The notes under the pieces: model-generated | Database searches by the model: none | Told to the model about the DNA's origin: nothing | Seen by the model: only the letters and a program-made list of their open reading frames with translations | Program-made: the position numbers and the translations under genes | In this document: piece by piece, positions 2,331-53,058 of the stretch | Layout: each line of letters begins with the position of its first letter | Numbering within the stretch: the stretch's first letter is position 1 | DNA from: Lachnospiraceae bacterium | GTDB taxonomy: Bacteria > Bacillota > Clostridia > Lachnospirales > Lachnospiraceae | Direction of reading: 5' to 3' | Assembly: GCA_016283575.1 (NCBI GenBank) | Contig: JAEEND010000025.1 | Span: forward strand, 1-64,000 | Length of the DNA: 64,000 nucleotides

Positions 2331-3140
2331 TTATATTATGATTTCAAGACCGGGATACATTTTATGGAGATTATCTTGCATTTCTTCTTTTAATATGGAA
2401 TATGCTGCATCCCCGGTACAGTGTCCTGAATAAAATACAGTGCTGCTGTTCCTTAGTTCTTTTCCTATATTTTTAATAACAGCTTCTTCGTCCTTCTCAT
2501 AGGGCGCGCTTTTCATCATATGAAATCCGGAAAATACGGCTGTTGCTTCTTTTTCGGAAAAGTCCTTGTATCTGTCCAGGATATTTAATATTCCATTGTG
2601 GGCGCAGCCTGAAAACAAAACTTCATTCCCATCTTCTTTTACCACCAGACATTGCTCGTGAGTAAAATCATCCGAAAGCATGCGACCTGATTCTTTTTTA
2701 GAAAGCATTTTATTACTTGCAGGCCATTCTCTTCGTCCGGTTATTTTTGAAAAAAGAAAAAGATTCTCATCTATTTTAAAATAATCATCCGTATAGATAA
2801 TATTGGGAAGCTTAAGGATTTCTTTATCAATTCCTATGAATCGCTCGCCGTTATAATAATCGCCTCCGGCATTTCTTCGCATATAAATACGCGCATTTTG
2901 ATTTATTTTATAAAAGGAAAGTATCCCACCGCTATGATCGTAGTGACCATGGCTCAGCACCAGAGTGTCCACTTCATTAAGAGGCACATTGAGAGCACGG
3001 GCATTGTCCAGCGTTTTTTCCGATTTTCCCGTATCCAATAAAATCTTATGTTCTTTCGTTTCTATATAAATAGAAAGGCCGTGTTCATAAAGAAGATTAC
3101 CTTTACCAATACCGTCTTCCATTAACACAACAATTTTCAT
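2331..3140 (-). CDS. MBL-fold metallohydrolase
   Basis: A metallo-beta-lactamase-fold hydrolase of 269 residues. The metal-binding motif HGHYDH is at residues 64-69, preceded by LLDTG, which is typical of the fold; later His residues (SGCAHNG and SGHCTGD) complete the site. The layout resembles the family annotated as 7,8-dihydropterin-6-yl-methyl-aminobenzene phosphate synthase-like hydrolases, but the substrate cannot be read from sequence. The start MKIVV (3140) is preferred over an ATG 12 bases upstream because GAGGTG lies between them. It follows the acyltransferase gene closely and is probably cotranscribed with it. Confidence 0.85.
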   Translation of the reverse strand: MKIVVLMEDGIGKGNLLYEHGLSIYIETKEHKILLDTGKSEKTLDNARALNVPLNEVDTLVLSHGHYDHSGGILSFYKINQNARIYMRRNAGGDYYNGERFIGIDKEILKLPNIIYTDDYFKIDENLFLFSKITGRREWPASNKMLSKKESGRMLSDDFTHEQCLVVKEDGNEVLFSGCAHNGILNILDRYKDFSEKEATAVFSGFHMMKSAPYEKDEEAVIKNIGKELRNSSTVFYSGHCTGDAAYSILKEEMQDNLHKMYPGLEIII

Positions 3141-3153
3141 GGCACCTCGCATT

Positions 3154-3858
3154 TTAGTCGCTTGAATGATCCTTTATGCATTCTTCAATTCGTTTCTTTA
3201 CTTCTTCCGCGATCTCTTTTGTAGACATATCTTTATATTCTTCATAAAGAAGGGGCTTTAAGTAATTGACCTTAACTTTAAGCTTGCGGATGGATTTTTC
3301 ATCAAAGGGACGGAAGGAATCGATAAGCGCCACGGGAATAATGGGGCATTTGGCTTTAACCGCGCTTTTGAAGCTTCCGGCCTTCATTTCATTAAGCTGG
3401 TTTCCGTTCTTGCTTCTGGTGCCTTCAGCGAAGATCACGAAATTCTCTCCGTTTTCAACTCTGAAAGTCATCTCATGAATAACATTTAAGTTTTGTCTTA
3501 AGTCTTCACGATCTAAAGGTATTGCTTTAAGTGCATCAAATATCTGCTTTACTAAAATAATATCCTTTATTTCTTTCTTATATATTATGGAAAAAGGGGC
3601 TTCGCAGGTTTCAAGCATTGCCAATACATCAAACATTCCCTGATGATTGGGAAATAGAATAAATCCGTTTTCTGAAGGAATATTCTCCATGCCGGAACCT
3701 TCTATTTTTACCCGCCCTGCCTTGTTGGCTCTTATGCACATTTTTCTTATAAAAGCGTAGGCTTCTTTGTGTTGTCCCTTTTTAGCATATCTGATGAGTT
3801 TGATTAAAAAGTAAGGCACCACATAAAAAAGCTTAGCCACCATCAATGCAATTCGCAT
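3154..3858 (-). CDS. plsC: 1-acyl-sn-glycerol-3-phosphate acyltransferase
   Basis: A 234-residue membrane-associated acyltransferase. The catalytic motif NHQGMFD (H72, D77) and the substrate-binding motif EGTRS (145-149) are both intact, with a third block around IPVALID. The family transfers an acyl chain to lysophosphatidic acid to make phosphatidic acid, an early step in phospholipid synthesis at the inner face of the membrane. An N-terminal hydrophobic segment likely docks it to the bilayer. It sits two bases downstream of the fumarase beta-subunit gene, in a leftward cluster of four genes. Confidence 0.88.
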   Translation of the reverse strand: MRIALMVAKLFYVVPYFLIKLIRYAKKGQHKEAYAFIRKMCIRANKAGRVKIEGSGMENIPSENGFILFPNHQGMFDVLAMLETCEAPFSIIYKKEIKDIILVKQIFDALKAIPLDREDLRQNLNVIHEMTFRVENGENFVIFAEGTRSKNGNQLNEMKAGSFKSAVKAKCPIIPVALIDSFRPFDEKSIRKLKVKVNYLKPLLYEEYKDMSTKEIAEEVKKRIEECIKDHSSD

Positions 3859-3860
3859 TT

Positions 3861-4412
3861 TTATTTCCTCTCAAATTCCGCTCTTGCTGTTTCGTACAGA
3901 TTGTTTCCTTCAGAATCCATAACAACTATTACGGGGAAGTTCGAAACTTCAAGCTTTCTAATGGCTTCGGTTCCCAAGTCGTCATAGGCCACTACTTCCG
4001 AAGATTTTATAGCCTTTGATAAAAGAGCTCCGGCTCCGCCTACAGCAGCAAAATAAACTGCTCCGTTTCGTACAATGGCTGCCTTTACTTCATCGCTTCT
4101 TTTTCCTTTTCCGACCATACCGATCATGCCCATATCCAAAAGCTTTGGCGCATACTTATCCATACGGCTTGCAGTTGTGGGACCTGCGGAACCTATGGGG
4201 CGTCCGTCTCTGGCGGGGCTTGGTCCCATGTAATAGATCGTGGTCCCTTTAATATCGATTGGAAGATCTTTTCCTTCCTTCAGGCTCTCGTCCATTCTTT
4301 TATGAGCAGCATCTCTTGCGGTATAAAGCACTCCGGTGAGATAAACATAGTCACCCGCTCTTAAATTCTTTGCATCTTCTTTTGAAATAGGTAAAGAAAT
4401 ATATTTATCCAT
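3861..4412 (-). CDS. fumB: Fumarate hydratase class I, beta (C-terminal) subunit
   Basis: A 183-residue subunit of the two-protein iron-sulfur fumarase. It carries the conserved blocks AGDYVYLTG near residues 20-28, the GTTIYYMGPSPA block and GSAGPTTASRMD, which form the substrate pocket in the beta domain of class I fumarases and related tartrate dehydratases. With the alpha subunit it interconverts fumarate and malate. The gene begins eight bases after the alpha subunit stop, so expression is coupled. A tartrate dehydratase cannot be fully excluded, but fumarase is the usual identity in this lineage. The symbol is used for the subunit, not for E. coli FumB. Confidence 0.9.
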   Translation of the reverse strand: MDKYISLPISKEDAKNLRAGDYVYLTGVLYTARDAAHKRMDESLKEGKDLPIDIKGTTIYYMGPSPARDGRPIGSAGPTTASRMDKYAPKLLDMGMIGMVGKGKRSDEVKAAIVRNGAVYFAAVGGAGALLSKAIKSSEVVAYDDLGTEAIRKLEVSNFPVIVVMDSEGNNLYETARAEFERK

Positions 4413-4420
4413 GGCCCCTC

Positions 4421-5263
4421 CTATAATACTTCAGTCACATGTCTGTTTACGTGACAGCATATATTAACAGCGACGGGAAGACCTGCGATATGGGTGGGAT
4501 ATGTAAGAATATTAACCTTTAATGCGGTAATAACTCCCCCAAGGCCGCCGGGACCGATGCCGGATTTATTTATTTCATCAAGCACTTCTTTTTCAAGTTC
4601 TTTTACATAGGGAATCTCTGAGTATTCATCCATGGGACGTAACAATGCCTTTTTAGCTAAAAGCGCACATTTTTCAAAGGTGCCGCCGATACCTACGCCC
4701 ACTACCATGGGAGGACAGGCATTGGGACCTGCTTCTTTTACAGCTGTCACAATGGCATTTTTAACACCTTCTATACCGTCGGCAGGTTTAAGCATAAACA
4801 CACGACTCATGTTTTCGCTTCCGAAGCCCTTGGGTGCAAGTGTGATTTCAACAGAGTCACCGGGCACGATCTCATAATGGATCACTCCCGGAGTGTTATC
4901 ACCGGTATTAACTCTTTCGATGGGATCCTTCACAACGGACTTTCTTAAAAAGCCCTCGGTATAGCCCTGTCTGATGCCTTCGTTGATGGCATCCTCCAAA
5001 GAACCCCCTGTAAAGTGCACATCCATTCCAACTTTTATAAATACCACTGCCATTCCTGTATCCTGGCAGATTGGGATCATATCGCTTCCTGCAATTTCAA
5101 GGTTTTCTCTTAACTGGCACAAGACCTTTTTTCCGAGCTCTGATTCTTCTTTTTCTATAGAAGAAAGAAGTGCGCCTTCCATGTCGGAAGAAAGAAAGTG
5201 ATTGGCCTTTATACACATGGCTTTAACCTTTTCGGTTACTTTATCCACAGAAATCTCTCTCAT
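4421..5263 (-). CDS. fumA: Fumarate hydratase class I, alpha (N-terminal) subunit
   Basis: A 280-residue iron-sulfur subunit with the cysteine-bearing blocks PICQDTGM, the GPNACPPMVVGVGIGGTFE block and a C-terminal NICCHVNRH region. Cysteines in these blocks hold the oxygen-sensitive 4Fe-4S cluster whose free iron activates substrate. It forms the catalytic enzyme with the next gene downstream. The start ATG has AAAGGGA upstream. It heads the leftward cluster fumA-fumB-plsC-hydrolase and faces the divergent exonuclease gene across about 85 bases. Confidence 0.92.
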   Translation of the reverse strand: MREISVDKVTEKVKAMCIKANHFLSSDMEGALLSSIEKEESELGKKVLCQLRENLEIAGSDMIPICQDTGMAVVFIKVGMDVHFTGGSLEDAINEGIRQGYTEGFLRKSVVKDPIERVNTGDNTPGVIHYEIVPGDSVEITLAPKGFGSENMSRVFMLKPADGIEGVKNAIVTAVKEAGPNACPPMVVGVGIGGTFEKCALLAKKALLRPMDEYSEIPYVKELEKEVLDEINKSGIGPGGLGGVITALKVNILTYPTHIAGLPVAVNICCHVNRHVTEVL

Positions 5264-47811: not shown

Positions 47812-48567
47812 TTAGTTAAGGATTTCGACTTTACCTTTCAGGCGGTCTCTGATCTCGTCTACCTGCTTACCGGATGTGATAAGACCGGAAACCTCGGACC
47901 AGTCAGCGTATATAAATCTGTCAGTGTGATTTTCCTTGCTGCTGTCTGCAACAACATAGGTTCTTCTTGAACATCTTACTATCATATTCTTTACATTGGC
48001 CTCTTCATAGGAAAGACATGATGGACCATTCAGATCCTTAAATCCGTCGGAACCAAGAAATGCAATATCGGCATGAACGGAATCAAGCATACGGAGCGCC
48101 CAACCGCCTACAAGAGCCTTACTGCTTCCGCGCACCTTTCCGCCCACGAGATATACTTCATTGTCTGACTGGGCAAGAGTGCTTGCGATAAGGAGGGAAT
48201 TGGTAATTATAATAAGGCCGTGACGCATGGACAATTGCTTTGCAATGGCAGTGGTGGTACTTCCCGCATCAAGGATGATGGTGTCACCTTCATGAACCAG
48301 GGCCGCAGCCCTCATACCGATGGCGGATTTATCTTCCGCATTGATGAATTCCTTATCATCGAGGGTCTTCTCCACCGCATTAATCCTGGGAATCGCGCCC
48401 CCGTGATTCTTTTCCGCTATTCCCGCTTCTTCCAAATAAATAATATCCTTTCGGATAGTTTCTGTCGAAACATTGAAAAGCTTAGCCATATCCCCAACTT
48501 TAATCGATCCTTCCTGTAAAAGAAGCTGAGCCATTCTGTTTCTTCTGTCAGCAGTTAAACTGGACAT
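47812..48567 (-). CDS. DeoR-family transcriptional regulator
   Basis: A 251-residue regulator with an N-terminal winged helix (FNVSTETIRKDIIYLEEAG, then KNHGGAI) and the C-terminal DeoR sensor domain (ILDAGSTTTAIAK near residue 95, FLGSDGF near 170) that binds sugar phosphates. It is divergent from the phosphotransferase locus and is probably its repressor. GAGAGGG lies before the ATG. Confidence 0.9.
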   Translation of the reverse strand: MSSLTADRRNRMAQLLLQEGSIKVGDMAKLFNVSTETIRKDIIYLEEAGIAEKNHGGAIPRINAVEKTLDDKEFINAEDKSAIGMRAAALVHEGDTIILDAGSTTTAIAKQLSMRHGLIIITNSLLIASTLAQSDNEVYLVGGKVRGSSKALVGGWALRMLDSVHADIAFLGSDGFKDLNGPSCLSYEEANVKNMIVRCSRRTYVVADSSKENHTDRFIYADWSEVSGLITSGKQVDEIRDRLKGKVEILN

Positions 48568-48910
48568 TAATTCACCCTCTCTATAATAAAAATGTATTTG
48601 GTTAGGTTGCGTTTAAATTTTTTTTGCACCAAAAATAAGTTTATCACAACCGGTCAACCTATGGATATCAAATATCATAACACAAAAATCCCAATAAGTC
48701 ACAAGAAATTTACAAAAACAGCAAGAATAGTCGTGTTAGTATTTGGTATTCCTTGCGAAAAAGGGGTTGACGCCCAACCATTCGCAATGTTATATTAGGT
48801 GCATAGTTAATCAATTGCCGACATTATGTTGGCCGGGCAACTTCTTCATGCAATTTCCAAGGCATTGCATGGAGGGTTGTCAACAATAAAATATTGGAGG
48901 GTTACATTTT
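48568..48910 (+). promoter_or_regulatory. Control region of the hexitol locus
   Basis: The 343-base divergent gap contains a rightward promoter, TTGACG (48767-48772), 18 bases, TATATT (48791-48796). An inverted repeat GGTTG-N5-CAACC (48765-48779) overlaps its -35 and is a candidate DeoR operator; related GGTTAGGTTG and CAACCGGTCAACC sequences lie further upstream at about 48600-48660. The untranslated leader folds into a hairpin, CATGCAAT/ATTGCATG (48847-48871), nested in GGCAAC/GTTGTC. Confidence 0.6.
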
Positions 48911-50302
48911 ATGAAAGAAAAAGTTCAATCATTTGGACGCTTCCTCAGCGGAATGGTTATGCCGAACATCGGCGCATTCATCGCATGGGGATTTATCACA
49001 GCTTTATTCATTGCAACCGGTTGGTTACCCAATGAAAGACTTTCAACTCTCGTTGATCCCATGCTTAAATACTTACTTCCCGTATTAATCGGTTACACAG
49101 GTGGTAAGATGGTTGGCGGACAGCGCGGAGCAGTTATGGGTGCTATCGCTACAATCGGTGTTATCGTAGGTTCAGACCAGATCATGCTCATGGGCGCTAT
49201 GGTTATGGGACCTCTTGCCGGTTGGTGTATCAAGCAGTTTGATAAGGCAATTGACGGAAAGATCAAAGCCGGATTCGAAATGCTTGTTAACAACTTCTCA
49301 GTTGGTATCTTCGGTATGTGCTTAGCTATTATCGGATACTACATTATCGGACCTTTTATGGCAGGTGTACTTGCTGTATTAAACGGTGGTGTTCAGATCC
49401 TTGTTGATCATGGTTTATTATTCCTTGTATCAATCTTTGTTGAACCCGCTAAGGTTCTTTTCCTTAACAACGCAATCAACCACGGTATCTTCACTCCTCT
49501 CGGAGCAGAGGGTGTTGCTGCAGCAGGAAAGTCCATCTTCTACATGATCGAGACTAACCCCGGCGCAGGTACCGGTGTTCTTTTAGCTTACTGGATGTTC
49601 AGCAAGGATAAAGTAGTTCGTGACTCCGCTCCCGGTGCGTTAATCGTACACTTACTCGGCGGTATTCATGAAATTTACTTCCCTTATGTACTTATGAATC
49701 CCTTGCTCATCCTTGCAACCATGGGTGGTTCTGTAGCAGCTATGATCTACAACCAGATCTTCAATCTTGGTCTTGCAGCTCCTCCTTCACCCGGATCAAT
49801 CTTCGCTTATGCGCTTGCAGCTCCCAAGGGCGGACTTATCCCTGTATTATTAAGCGTAGTTATCGCTGCAGGTGTTTCATTCGTAATTGCAGCTCCTATC
49901 GTACGTTTCACCAATAAGGGTAAGAGCCTTGAAGATGCTACAGAAGAGATGAAGCAGATGAAGGCTGAATCCAAGGGTCAGAAAGTAGAAAAAGCTGTTG
50001 ATTTAGCAGATCTTGATTCAATCGTATTTGCTTGCGACGCAGGTATGGGTTCATCCGCTATGGGCGCTTCTGTAATGCAGAAGAAGCTCACAGCAGCAGG
50101 TCTTGACGGAATCACTGTTTCTCATTCTTCAGTTTCCGAAGTACCTAATGGAACAAAACTTGTTATCTGTCACAAGGATCTTGCAGCAAGAGCAACCAAG
50201 TCAGCTCCCGGAGCAAAAATTGTTACCATTGACAATTTCATGAACGCTCCTGAATATGATCAGGTTATCGCTGAAATCGCTGCAGCTAAAAAAAAACATT
50301 AA
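48911..50302 (+). CDS. mtlA: Mannitol-type PTS transporter, EIICB
   Basis: A 463-residue protein. The EIIC membrane domain (1-~335) begins GRFLSGMVMPNIGAFIAWG and contains the GIHEIYFPYVL block of mannitol permeases. The EIIB domain (~375-463) has the phospho-Cys in FACDAGMGSSAMG. It imports and phosphorylates a hexitol, taking phosphate from EIIA. It ends AAAKKKH-stop in a run of nine A. The EIIA frame is open from directly after that run in -1, so a fused EIICBA could arise by slippage. Confidence 0.93.
   Translation: MKEKVQSFGRFLSGMVMPNIGAFIAWGFITALFIATGWLPNERLSTLVDPMLKYLLPVLIGYTGGKMVGGQRGAVMGAIATIGVIVGSDQIMLMGAMVMGPLAGWCIKQFDKAIDGKIKAGFEMLVNNFSVGIFGMCLAIIGYYIIGPFMAGVLAVLNGGVQILVDHGLLFLVSIFVEPAKVLFLNNAINHGIFTPLGAEGVAAAGKSIFYMIETNPGAGTGVLLAYWMFSKDKVVRDSAPGALIVHLLGGIHEIYFPYVLMNPLLILATMGGSVAAMIYNQIFNLGLAAPPSPGSIFAYALAAPKGGLIPVLLSVVIAAGVSFVIAAPIVRFTNKGKSLEDATEEMKQMKAESKGQKVEKAVDLADLDSIVFACDAGMGSSAMGASVMQKKLTAAGLDGITVSHSSVSEVPNGTKLVICHKDLAARATKSAPGAKIVTIDNFMNAPEYDQVIAEIAAAKKKH
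50288..50296 (+). other. A9 slippery run at the EIICB/EIIA junction
   Basis: Nine consecutive A encode the last Lys codons of EIICB. One extra A in the transcript, or a -1 ribosomal slip on AAA AAA, would bypass the stop and continue in the EIIA frame without any stop through 18-19 linker codons. Confidence 0.6.
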
Positions 50303-50346
50303 GTAGCGATTCGTCTTCTGAAAAGAAAGACTACGAACTTGGTGTT

Positions 50347-50760
50347 TTGCTTAAAAAGAACATAATTCTGAATCGCGCACCCATGACTAAAGAAGAGGTT
50401 ATTAAAGATTTAGGCCGAATTTTCTATCAGGGTGGATATACCACAGAGAAATATACCGAAGCAATGCTTGAAAAAGAAAAGAATTTCAACACAGCGATCG
50501 GTAACAGCCTTGGAATACCACATGGTATAGAGAGCATGCGCGGTGAGATCAAGCACTCCGGACTTGCAGTGTTTACATTTCCTGAAGGCACTGACTGGGG
50601 TGATGGAGAAATTGTTAAGCTTGTTATCGGTGTAGCAGCAATCGGTAACGATCATATGGCTACCCTTGCAAGAATAGCAGATGCTTGTGAGTCGGAAGAA
50701 AAGGTCGATGAAATCTTAAAGATGGATGTCGATTCCGTATATGAACTTTTTAAAGCTTAA
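50347..50760 (+). CDS. mtlF: Mannitol-type PTS EIIA component
   Basis: A 137-residue EIIA domain with the phospho-His in SLGIPHGI and the block GDGEIVKLVIGVAA. Its start is uncertain. The TTG at 50347 gives MLKKNIILN, near the usual start of free-standing EIIA, but there is no ribosome-binding site before it or before the ATG at 50383. The frame is open back to 50290, encoding a Ser/Lys-rich linker that resembles the junction of fused EIICBA proteins. It may therefore be made mainly by frameshift from EIICB or by coupling. Confidence 0.85.
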   Translation: MLKKNIILNRAPMTKEEVIKDLGRIFYQGGYTTEKYTEAMLEKEKNFNTAIGNSLGIPHGIESMRGEIKHSGLAVFTFPEGTDWGDGEIVKLVIGVAAIGNDHMATLARIADACESEEKVDEILKMDVDSVYELFKA

Positions 50761-50778
50761 TTAAATAACTGATATGAG

Positions 50779-50810
50779 TGGGCCGGGAGCAGCGCTGCGA
50801 ACCGGCCCAT
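50779..50810 (+). other. GC-rich stem-loop in the hexitol transcript
   Basis: GTGGGCCGG pairs with CCGGCCCAT around an inner GCAGCGCTGC palindrome. There is no T run, so it is more likely an mRNA processing or stabilising structure than a terminator. Confidence 0.5.
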
Positions 50811-50847
50811 ATTATCATAAAACCAGCGCAGAAATGAGGAAGACAAA

Positions 50848-52113
50848 ATGAAAACAAGAGCAGTCAGAATGTATGGCGCAATGGACCTTCGTCTTGAGGA
50901 ATTTGAATTACCGGAAATAAAAGATGATGAAATCCTTGCTAAAATCTACAGCGACAGTATTTGTATGTCAACATACAAGCTTGCCGTAGCAGGAAAGGAT
51001 CACAAGCGTTGTCCCCAGAATGTGGACACCAATCCCATCATTGTAGGTCATGAATTTGCAGGTGTCATAGTTAAGGTAGGAAAGAAATGGCAGGATAAAT
51101 TCAAACCAGGTATGCGTTTTGCCCAGCAGCCGGCTTTAAATTACAAGGGAAGCATGGCATCTCCCGGATATTCCTATGAATATTATGGCGGAGATACAGA
51201 ATACTGTATTTTCCCTCACGAGACAATGGAATGCGAAGCTCTCATGCCTTTTGACGGCGACAGTTTCTACAAGGCGTCACTTGGCGAGCCTTTGTCTTGT
51301 TCCATCGGCGCTTTCCATGCGCAGTATCATACCAACAAGCAGAACTACACCCATGAAATGGGTATTAAAAAAGGCGGAAACTTAATAATCATGGGCGGAT
51401 GCGGACCTATGGGACTGGGAGCTGTCTCCTACGGTATCGTATGTGACTACCATCCCAAGCGCATCGTGGTTACCGATGTTGACGACGCCAAGATAGAGAG
51501 AGCAAAAGAAGTTGTATCTCCTGATTGGGCAAGAGAGCACGGAATTGAACTCATCTATGTAAATACTGCAAAAATGGAAGATCCTAAGAAGGGATTGATG
51601 GATATTACAGAAGGTCATGGTTATGACGATGTCCTTATTTATGTTCCCATCCCCGCAGTATGCGAATTAGGAAATCAGGTAATGGCCTTTGACGGATGTA
51701 TGAGTTTCTTCTCAGGTCCCACAGATCATGAATTCAGTTGTAAAATAAACTTATATGATTGCCATTACAATTCAACACATATTCTTGGCACCACAGGCGG
51801 TAACAATGACGACCTGATCGAAGCCAATGAATTAACCGCAAAAGGTATTTTGGATCCTTCCGTAATGGTTACACATGTAGGAGGCCTTGACAGTGTTGCG
51901 GAGACAACCAAGAATCTTCCCAACATCAAGGGTGGTAAGAAACTTGCTTATACACAGTTCGACATGCCCATGACGGCGATCGAAGACTTCGGAAAGCTTG
52001 GAGAAACAGATCCTTTCTTTAAGAAGCTTGACGAATGTTGTAAGGCTCATAAGGGATTATGGAATCCTGAAGCCGAAAAGATGATTTTTGAACACTTTAA
52101 TGTAGAGGTTTAA
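50848..52113 (+). CDS. Zinc-binding medium-chain dehydrogenase, SorE-like polyol-phosphate dehydrogenase
   Basis: A 421-residue medium-chain dehydrogenase. The catalytic zinc ligands fit Cys in SICMSTYKL and His-Glu in GHEFAG; the nucleotide-binding loop is GGCGPMGLGA. The block between, including ALNYKGSMASPGYSYEYYGG, resembles L-sorbose-1-phosphate reductases. The usual structural zinc lobe of four Cys is not obvious. In this locus it would oxidise the imported hexitol phosphate to a ketose phosphate. The exact substrate is unknown. Confidence 0.82.
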   Translation: MKTRAVRMYGAMDLRLEEFELPEIKDDEILAKIYSDSICMSTYKLAVAGKDHKRCPQNVDTNPIIVGHEFAGVIVKVGKKWQDKFKPGMRFAQQPALNYKGSMASPGYSYEYYGGDTEYCIFPHETMECEALMPFDGDSFYKASLGEPLSCSIGAFHAQYHTNKQNYTHEMGIKKGGNLIIMGGCGPMGLGAVSYGIVCDYHPKRIVVTDVDDAKIERAKEVVSPDWAREHGIELIYVNTAKMEDPKKGLMDITEGHGYDDVLIYVPIPAVCELGNQVMAFDGCMSFFSGPTDHEFSCKINLYDCHYNSTHILGTTGGNNDDLIEANELTAKGILDPSVMVTHVGGLDSVAETTKNLPNIKGGKKLAYTQFDMPMTAIEDFGKLGETDPFFKKLDECCKAHKGLWNPEAEKMIFEHFNVEV

Positions 52114-52155: not shown

Positions 52156-53058
52156 ATGATTTATACCGTAACTTTCAATCCTTCACTGGATTACATCGTA
52201 TCCATGAAGAGTTTTGAAATGGGTAAGACAAACAGAACAGCAACGGAGTTAATGTTACCCGGAGGAAAGGGGATTAACGTTTCCACAGTTTTACAGAATC
52301 TCGGTATTAAAAATACTGCCTTGGGGTTTATGGCAGGATTTACCGGTAAAGAGATTGAAAACCGATTAAAGGACATGGGGATGTCCAGTGATTTCATAGA
52401 AATCGACAACGGTTTTTCACGTATCAATGTAAAGCTTAAGGACTATGATGGAACTGAAATCAACGGAATGGGGCCCGAGATTTCCAAGGAATCCATCGAT
52501 ATTCTGATGGGTAAACTGGATAAGTTAAAAGAAGGTGATACGCTGGTACTTGCAGGATCGATTCCTGCCAGCATGCCGGCCACAATCTATGAAGATATTT
52601 TAGCTCACCTTGATGGCAGAGGGATCCGCTTTGTAGTGGATGCCACCAAGAATTTATTACTTAATGTGCTTAAATATCATCCCTTCTTGATAAAGCCGAA
52701 CAATCATGAACTCGGGGAAATCTTTAATGTAACACTTAAGACCCGGGAATCGGTGGTTGAATACGCTAAGAAATTGCAGGACATGGGGGCACAAAATGTC
52801 CTGGTATCCATGGCTGGTGAGGGAGCTACTCTTGTTGACTGTGAAGGAAATGTTCACATGCACGAAGCACCTAAGGGTAAGCTTGTTAATGCGGTTGGAG
52901 CAGGTGATTCCATGGTGGCAGGCTTTATTGCAGGCTACGAAGAAAAGCATGATTATGAGCATGCTTTCAGAATGGGATTATCTACAGGTTCTGCCAGTGC
53001 TTTTTCAGAGTTCTTAGCAACTAAAGAAGAAGTAGAAGCAGTCCTGAAACAATTTTAG
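52156..53058 (+). CDS. PfkB-family sugar-phosphate kinase (1-phosphofructokinase/tagatose-6-phosphate kinase type)
   Basis: A 300-residue ribokinase-fold enzyme of the FruK/LacC subgroup. It begins MIYTVTFNPSLDYIV, has GGKGINVS near residue 36, and the catalytic base region GAGDSMVAGF near 247-256. It phosphorylates a ketose phosphate at the free end to the 1,6-bisphosphate. With the dehydrogenase before it, this would route the hexitol into glycolysis. It closes the locus, with a terminator after it. Confidence 0.88.
   Translation: MIYTVTFNPSLDYIVSMKSFEMGKTNRTATELMLPGGKGINVSTVLQNLGIKNTALGFMAGFTGKEIENRLKDMGMSSDFIEIDNGFSRINVKLKDYDGTEINGMGPEISKESIDILMGKLDKLKEGDTLVLAGSIPASMPATIYEDILAHLDGRGIRFVVDATKNLLLNVLKYHPFLIKPNNHELGEIFNVTLKTRESVVEYAKKLQDMGAQNVLVSMAGEGATLVDCEGNVHMHEAPKGKLVNAVGAGDSMVAGFIAGYEEKHDYEHAFRMGLSTGSASAFSEFLATKEEVEAVLKQF

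Follow-up and report, generated by a model that had tools for sequence, protein, structure and literature searches.

A run of nine adenines that may join EIIA to a minority of mannitol-type EIICB chains by frameshifting in Lachnospiraceae

The window analysed here, a 64,000-nt stretch of contig JAEEND010000025.1 from a Lachnospiraceae bacterium, carries an mtlA-type EIICB gene with nine consecutive adenines (A9) close to its 3' end, and EIIA follows in the -1 frame. The same arrangement is present in three other genomes of the order; in two of these the EIIA frame has no usable start codon and EIIA is under purifying selection. The likely explanation is a programmed frameshift, probably at the level of transcription, by which a minority of the EIICB chains acquire EIIA. 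Because it recurs in those three other genomes, the A9 arrangement is probably no sequencing error but a deliberate switch between two products.

Anatomy of the EIICB-EIIA junction

The features of the region are listed in Table 1. The EIICB protein matches NF011663, a 639-position model of the fused mannitol permease IICBA, with 633.6 bits over positions 7-472 (cut-off 589), and also exceeds the cut-off of TIGR00851 (473.2 bits against 468.4). Both the IIC and the IIB domain of NF011663 are present, and the IIA part of the model is continued by the -1-frame product, which aligns to positions 483-635 with 89.9 bits, a fragment score that lies below the whole-protein cut-off. The single continuous reading frame of NF011663 members is lacking, as EIIA sits in the -1 frame. 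The 3' end of EIICB in its own frame is GCT AAA AAA AAA CAT TAA, in agreement with the ending AAA AAA AAA CAT TAA given in an earlier note on this DNA, and the A9 run occupies exactly the positions listed. A heptamer of the dnaX type (X_XXZ_ZZN) is found in frame at the run, as A_AAA_AAA within AAA AAA AAA CAT. No Rfam match was obtained at 48500-51500.

Table 1. Features of the region in window coordinates, with supporting evidence
Feature	Position	Strand	Remarks
DeoR-family regulator, divergent	47812..48567	-	best NCBIfam matches DeoR-type; no equivalog above cut-off
EIICB Shine-Dalgarno GGAGGG	48896..48901	+	read directly; anti-SD duplex -9.8 kcal/mol
mtlA-type EIICB ORF, 463 aa	48911..50302	+	stop TAA 50300-50302; PTS_EIIC and PTS_IIB domains
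Putative A9 slippage site	50288..50296	+	3 nt upstream of the EIICB stop
Linker, EIIA (-1) frame	50297..50346	+	ends in DYELGV (50329-50346), ahead of any start codon in frame
TTG, first possible separate EIIA start	50347..50349	+	no clear Shine-Dalgarno; -2.1 kcal/mol
EIIA domain, -1 frame relative to EIICB	50347..50760	+	PF00359 99 bits, cut-off 27
ATG, second possible EIIA start	50383..50385	+	duplex +0.4 kcal/mol; a start here would remove LLKKNIILNRAP
Zinc-type dehydrogenase, downstream	50848..52113	+	no NCBIfam model above cut-off
1-Phosphofructokinase	52156..53058	+	TIGR03828 334 bits, cut-off 292

In the -1 frame, a TAA at 50287-50289 is followed by a stretch that is open from 50290, as the earlier note had described, through to the EIIA stop at 50758-50760. 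The histidine of the IPHG motif in this EIIA, like that of VPHG, is presumably the phosphorylated residue, and IPHG falls opposite VPHG when the window EIIA is aligned with E. coli EIIAmtl (1a3a). With EIIA as the query, a single match at E <= 1e-3 was obtained in the 2.21-Mb source genome, and none in 17 other genomes of the source genus.

The earliest start codons in the EIIA frame are the TTG and then the ATG of Table 1, and the duplex energies calculated for them bear out the earlier statement that neither has a ribosome-binding site. For comparison, 46 non-overlapping window ORFs of at least 200 aa were scored in the same way. An anti-SD duplex stronger than -2.1 kcal/mol was found at some start in the first 150 nt in 45 of the 46 (median -7.3); by the first start alone the figure is 34, the other 12 being no better than the TTG.

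Because the DYELGV at the end of the linker lies upstream of this TTG, its translation is expected only from ribosomes that arrive from EIICB. The alignment with fused relatives that the earlier note had proposed reveals a motif, D[YF]xxG[VI] before LLKKNI or similar, in 21 of the 27 fused relatives with a listed linker (it is absent in six), and the window keeps it as DYxxGV. The -1-frame linker region of the window (DYELGVLLKKNI) includes DYELGVLLKKN, and that of L003, a Pseudobutyrivibrio locus described below (DYRDGVLLKKNI), includes DYRDGVLLKKN; the linker region of L002, from Butyrivibrio sp. MC2013, is DAEMGVLLKKNI. The window linker appears to read as coding sequence, which supports a frameshifted fusion.

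EIICB relatives and the four A9 loci

The sample of EIICB relatives was assembled from a scan of genome contigs (the best 80 of 96 EIICB loci) and from whole-genome searches of overlapping samples, which gave matches in 40 of 397 genomes searched for the family, 60 of 392 and 54 of 344 for the order, 19 of 291 for the class, 43 of 398 for the phylum, 18 of 79 for the genus of L002, 10 of 22 for the family of G586 and 11 of 20 for the genus of G176. From 284 classified loci, 49 identical at the EIICB end and eight without an EIIB end were removed, leaving 227, the window included; some low-identity or truncated EIICB matches lie outside the classified set. Ninety-five of the 227 are fused in frame, a number that under-counts fused genes, as 40 matches without a locus were fetched mostly for having a short open frame. 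Another 115 have no EIIA close by, defined as no tblastn match at E <= 1e-3 within 900 nt (one of them at a contig end), 14 have a separate EIIA within 300 nt, and three have an EIIA farther away. All four A9 loci were recruited before their A9 status was known, and the follow-up searches were then centred on genomes showing A9.

The 14 close, separate EIIAs lie in frame 0 in six cases, in +1 in two and in -1 in six. Each of the eight in frame 0 or +1 has a start whose duplex, at -4.7 to -10.9 kcal/mol, is stronger than those of the window starts; in one of them (L269) the good Shine-Dalgarno is at an ATG 24 nt past the first start. The six -1 loci are the window, L002, L203 (genome G586), L217 (G623), L096 (G176) and L078, a remote locus whose EIIA has its own ATG (-4.3). 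L078 was rejected as a frameshift case together with L198, L201 and L230, in which EIIA is either remote in sequence or over 700 nt away. L096, with A7 and a -1 EIIA, was treated as doubtful, since the 10 other genomes of its genus with mtlA carry long open frames (631-689 aa), which indicates fused genes. At 2880-3020 of L096, the EIICB stop follows A7 with EIIA in -1, an arrangement that could reflect an indel, an error or a slip site of recent origin. A further oddity is L073 (UBA4380, 3001-4934), whose EIICB is 79% identical to that of the window up to residue 299, with 63% identity resuming at residue 343 in another frame, suggestive of decay or of a chimeric contig; this locus carries no weight in the argument.

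Runs of at least nine A within EIICB were found in four of the 227 distinct loci (311,412 nt, with fused genes cut off where the EIICB match ends). The carriers are the window, L002, L203 and L217; all four have EIIA in the -1 frame and a run whose start lies 13-15 nt ahead of the end of the stop codon. None of the remaining 128 non-fused loci exceeds seven A in its last 30 nt. Among the -1 cases, four have a run of at least nine A and one does not (L096 being the fifth), against none with and 127 without (Fisher p=4e-7, kinship ignored). The run starts at codon position 1 in the window and at position 3 in the other three, its length being nine throughout. When other run lengths were read in all four loci, A8 and A11 stopped at once, and A7 and A10 entered EIIA. 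A slipped frame that is open into a conserved domain, in an arrangement shared with relatives, as programmed slippage calls for, is found in four genomes.

L203 and L217 come from two genomes of another family, the only members of their genus in the sample. In both, the open EIIA frame lacks ATG, GTG and TTG as far as codon 34, which already lies 17 residues into EIIA, and a complete separate EIIA therefore cannot be started there conventionally; L217 has an internal ATG with a Shine-Dalgarno-like duplex of -5.8 kcal/mol, and a start there costs 17 EIIA residues. Between the two loci, EIIA has a dN of 0.054 and a dS of 0.741 (dN/dS about 0.07), the mark of purifying selection, and A9 has been kept in spite of an EIICB dS of 1.03. 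Their linkers (dN 0.57, dS 0.72 over 17 codons) are weakly conserved in sequence and have kept their length and openness. A stem-loop at 1366-1381 of L203, at a matching place in L217, is a possible frameshift stimulator.

The window and L002 are likewise well separated in EIICB (dS 1.09); for EIIA the dN is 0.334 and silent sites are saturated. L002 comes from a genome with a strain name and no MAG tag, and of the 18 of 79 genomes in its genus that have mtlA, A9 was seen in MC2013 alone. Lysine codons in the MC2013 EIICB favour AAG over AAA by 18:5, the AAA of the run included, and yet the run is all A. In L203 and L217, AAA is already the commoner lysine codon (21:9 and 26:7), which makes an all-A run less surprising, and the argument from codon use fails there. 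A separate EIIA could start at a TTG in the window and at an ATG in MC2013, and in both a weakly initiated form may be made.

Long A/T runs are scarce in the source genome, which has 14 distinct runs of at least nine in 2.21 Mb (15 matches, one run of ten being counted twice). By ORF calling, none of the 13 others is placed within a long gene that has a likely start: the L288 run falls within an ORF, by 24 nt, only when translation is taken to begin at an upstream TTG, the likely ATG being downstream of the run, and the L286, L294 and L296 runs touch ORFs of 61 to 110 aa. Programmed slippage calls for a coding run of about nine or more A/T that has few counterparts elsewhere in the genome, and the mtlA run is of this kind. 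At L294 (1158-2099, contig 16 of G000), a solute-binding-protein ORF appears to stop prematurely close to a nine-base A/T run; the short ORFs beyond it gave no credible family in Pfam.

A quick tree was built from 202 of the 227 EIICB protein rows. The window clusters with L002 and L003 in one clade (SH-aLRT 98), which sits within a group of 35 rows, 31 of them fused. L203 and L217 lie far from this clade and are not sisters, though of one genus. The A9 rows require four changes on the tree, and the starred branches force four, which means that the A9 arrangement arose more than once, moved, or was repeatedly lost; shared inheritance across the four genomes does not appear to be simple. L003 (3001-5991, Pseudobutyrivibrio MAG RUI423) has a tandem EIICB followed by an EIIC-EIIA gene in frame without EIIB, and would thus seem to obtain the same two kinds of subunit by duplication. 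Tentatively, and with somewhat more doubt than confidence, we suggest that a set EIICB:EIICBA ratio is what is selected, that a polymerase-slippage site between transporter and donor has been acquired time and again in lineages of the order, leaving a minority of donor-bearing subunits to serve the rest, and that L003 swapped the slip for a duplication (EIICB plus EIIC-EIIA).

Proposed mechanism and its rivals

Faithful reading of A9 would give EIICB of 463 aa, ending at the TAA at 50300. One A gained in the transcript, or a ribosome slipping one base back, at 50288-50296 would bring translation into the -1 frame, through a linker of about 17 codons and into EIIA. The predicted product, an EIICBA of 616 residues, is close to the fusion of about 600 residues that the earlier note had envisaged. 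One A lost would lead to a stop within a few codons and to what is essentially EIICB, with two or three altered last residues, in the four genomes. RNA polymerase slippage would be the main route, clearly preferred to ribosomal slippage, and both may act. EIIA, the phosphate donor, would be carried by a minority of subunits and would serve the neighbouring EIICB in the membrane dimer; in E. coli MtlA, EIIA does serve in trans. The sequences show the layout, its presence in four genomes, and, in two of them, the lack of usable EIIA starts and the purifying selection on EIIA; that slippage occurs, its rate, the machine that slips and the service in trans are what we infer. The fused EIICBA would be the minor form, as the clostridial A9 precedent considered below suggests.

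The frameshifted fusion is supported by the lack of a usable EIIA start in two genomes, by the purifying selection on EIIA there and by the linker motif upstream of the window starts. The proposal of the earlier note, that -1 frameshifting or transcript slippage makes the fusion, gains from the same EIIA selection and linker motif, and from the recurrence of the arrangement. Frameshifting by the ribosome in place of transcript slippage, of the E. coli dnaX type and on A_AAA_AAA or A_AAA_AAG, would also yield EIICBA; it is the less probable source, though one to be taken seriously. In L203 and L217, A_AAA_AAG stands directly before the stop and a hairpin follows 5-6 nt past the AAG; its z over 28 nt is -3.77 and -2.85, and its stem shows one double compensatory change between the two. 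A 64-nt fold of L203 has a z of -3.17. The L217 hairpin, however, differs from the best 64-nt fold of that locus (z -1.26), the L002 structure has a z of +0.42 on 64 nt and -2.59 on 40 nt, and the window has neither A_AAA_AAG nor a detectable downstream stimulatory hairpin of the kind that dnaX-type frameshifting calls for (z -0.69, -0.88 and -0.55). Nine A is moreover longer than a heptamer needs, and a constant nine in a varying codon phase favours a length-dependent event of the polymerase over one of the ribosome.

With the EIICB stop 44 nt ahead of it, the TTG at 50347 could be used through reinitiation or coupling to make a separate EIIA, as in the split-gene genomes, and a start there would keep the whole domain. 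The split EIICB/EIIA pairs, for example those of Megasphaera (L049, L052, L054), have a clear Shine-Dalgarno and an ATG, and so lend this reading some credit; against it stand the duplex of just -2.1 kcal/mol at the TTG, a linker motif that lies upstream of it, the same arrangement without the usual start in L203 and L217, and an A9 that is left unexplained, and we consider it improbable. Slightly more improbable still is a miscount of an in-frame run in sequencing or assembly, or a fresh inactivating indel. Homopolymers are prone to both error and mutation, and L096, with its A7, may be an example. The four separately assembled genomes, that of MC2013 among them, have A9 and never A8 or A10 at one junction, and EIIA is under purifying selection in L203 and L217. 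The missing A suspected by the earlier note is thereby made unlikely, A9 with a -1 EIIA being present at the same junction in three separately assembled genomes besides the window. Replication slippage at A9 that toggles EIIA, as a poly-A run does in phase variation of Mycoplasma p78 (PMC3711429), is very improbable: the linkers of the 95 fused genes include one A9 (L088, a fused gene in which no slip is required), two A8 and no A10, all read in frame, and the four -1 cases are always A9. Within one population such toggling may still occur.

Known systems and gene neighbourhood

The domains of E. coli MtlA are fused in one frame, whereas EIIA of the window is in -1. The domains and their order are otherwise identical to those of E. 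coli MtlA EIICBA (1a3a, 1j6t, 2few). Poly-A recoding is already known, and no report of a case in a PTS permease was found among the open-licence papers searched. The precedent closest in kind is the IS1447 transposase of Clostridium thermocellum, also in a clostridial host, in which an A9 at the 3' end of orfA undergoes polymerase slippage of about 16% each way; as reported there, cDNA clones from the A9 template had A10 in 8 of 52 and A8 in 9 of 52, and DNA clones showed no change (0 of 30) (PMC6211511). IS1447 differs in being a mobile element that needs +1, in its authors' naming (PMC6211511), whereas the window gene is a host sugar transporter. Closest in layout is tssM1 of Citrobacter rodentium, a shortened gene whose stop is preceded by an A-run at a distance of 28 nt; polymerase slippage is described there as supplying the missing C-terminal domain, and both forms are needed (PMC4256274). 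That run is A11, in a secretion-system gene, and its slippage was measured (PMC4256274), whereas slippage at the window run is predicted.

The poly-A magnesium chelatase genes resemble the present case in being a split pair with a fused form in other species, and an A9 cassette from one gave 40% frameshift in E. coli; they encode a different protein and were assayed in an E. coli test system (PMC3711429). In dnaX of Thermus thermophilus and E. coli, one gene likewise gives two products via slippage on A's, but there the slip yields the shorter product and in the window it would yield the longer one (PMC1088944, PMC5009743). Nine is reported by Baranov et al. as the run length at which counter-selection shows in a large part of genomes (PMC1088944). 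No published case of frameshifting or slippage in a PTS or mannitol gene was found in searches of the main texts of open-licence papers. Mannitol, PTS and phosphotransferase do not occur in the main text of PMC3711429, nor in two thirds of the text of PMC5009743; in the portions covered, PMC4066793 has no phosphotransferase, and PMC11792507, on mtlA, no frameshift.

If the proposal is true, gene pairs of this type, which would be annotated as split or frameshifted PTS genes, make a full permease, and a sugar transporter would join the non-mobile genes known for poly-A recoding. With fused, slip-fused and duplicated forms among close relatives, the family would also offer a natural system for asking what use there is in a fixed subunit mix.

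The gene neighbourhood is partly shared with the relatives of the window. A homologue of the DeoR-type regulator is also found beside mtlA in L002 and L003, and in both a counterpart of the dehydrogenase, 81-82% identical, adjoins mtlA. As the dehydrogenase (50848 on) has no NCBIfam model above cut-off and is followed by 1-phosphofructokinase (to 53058), this "mannitol" PTS may have a different hexitol as its substrate.
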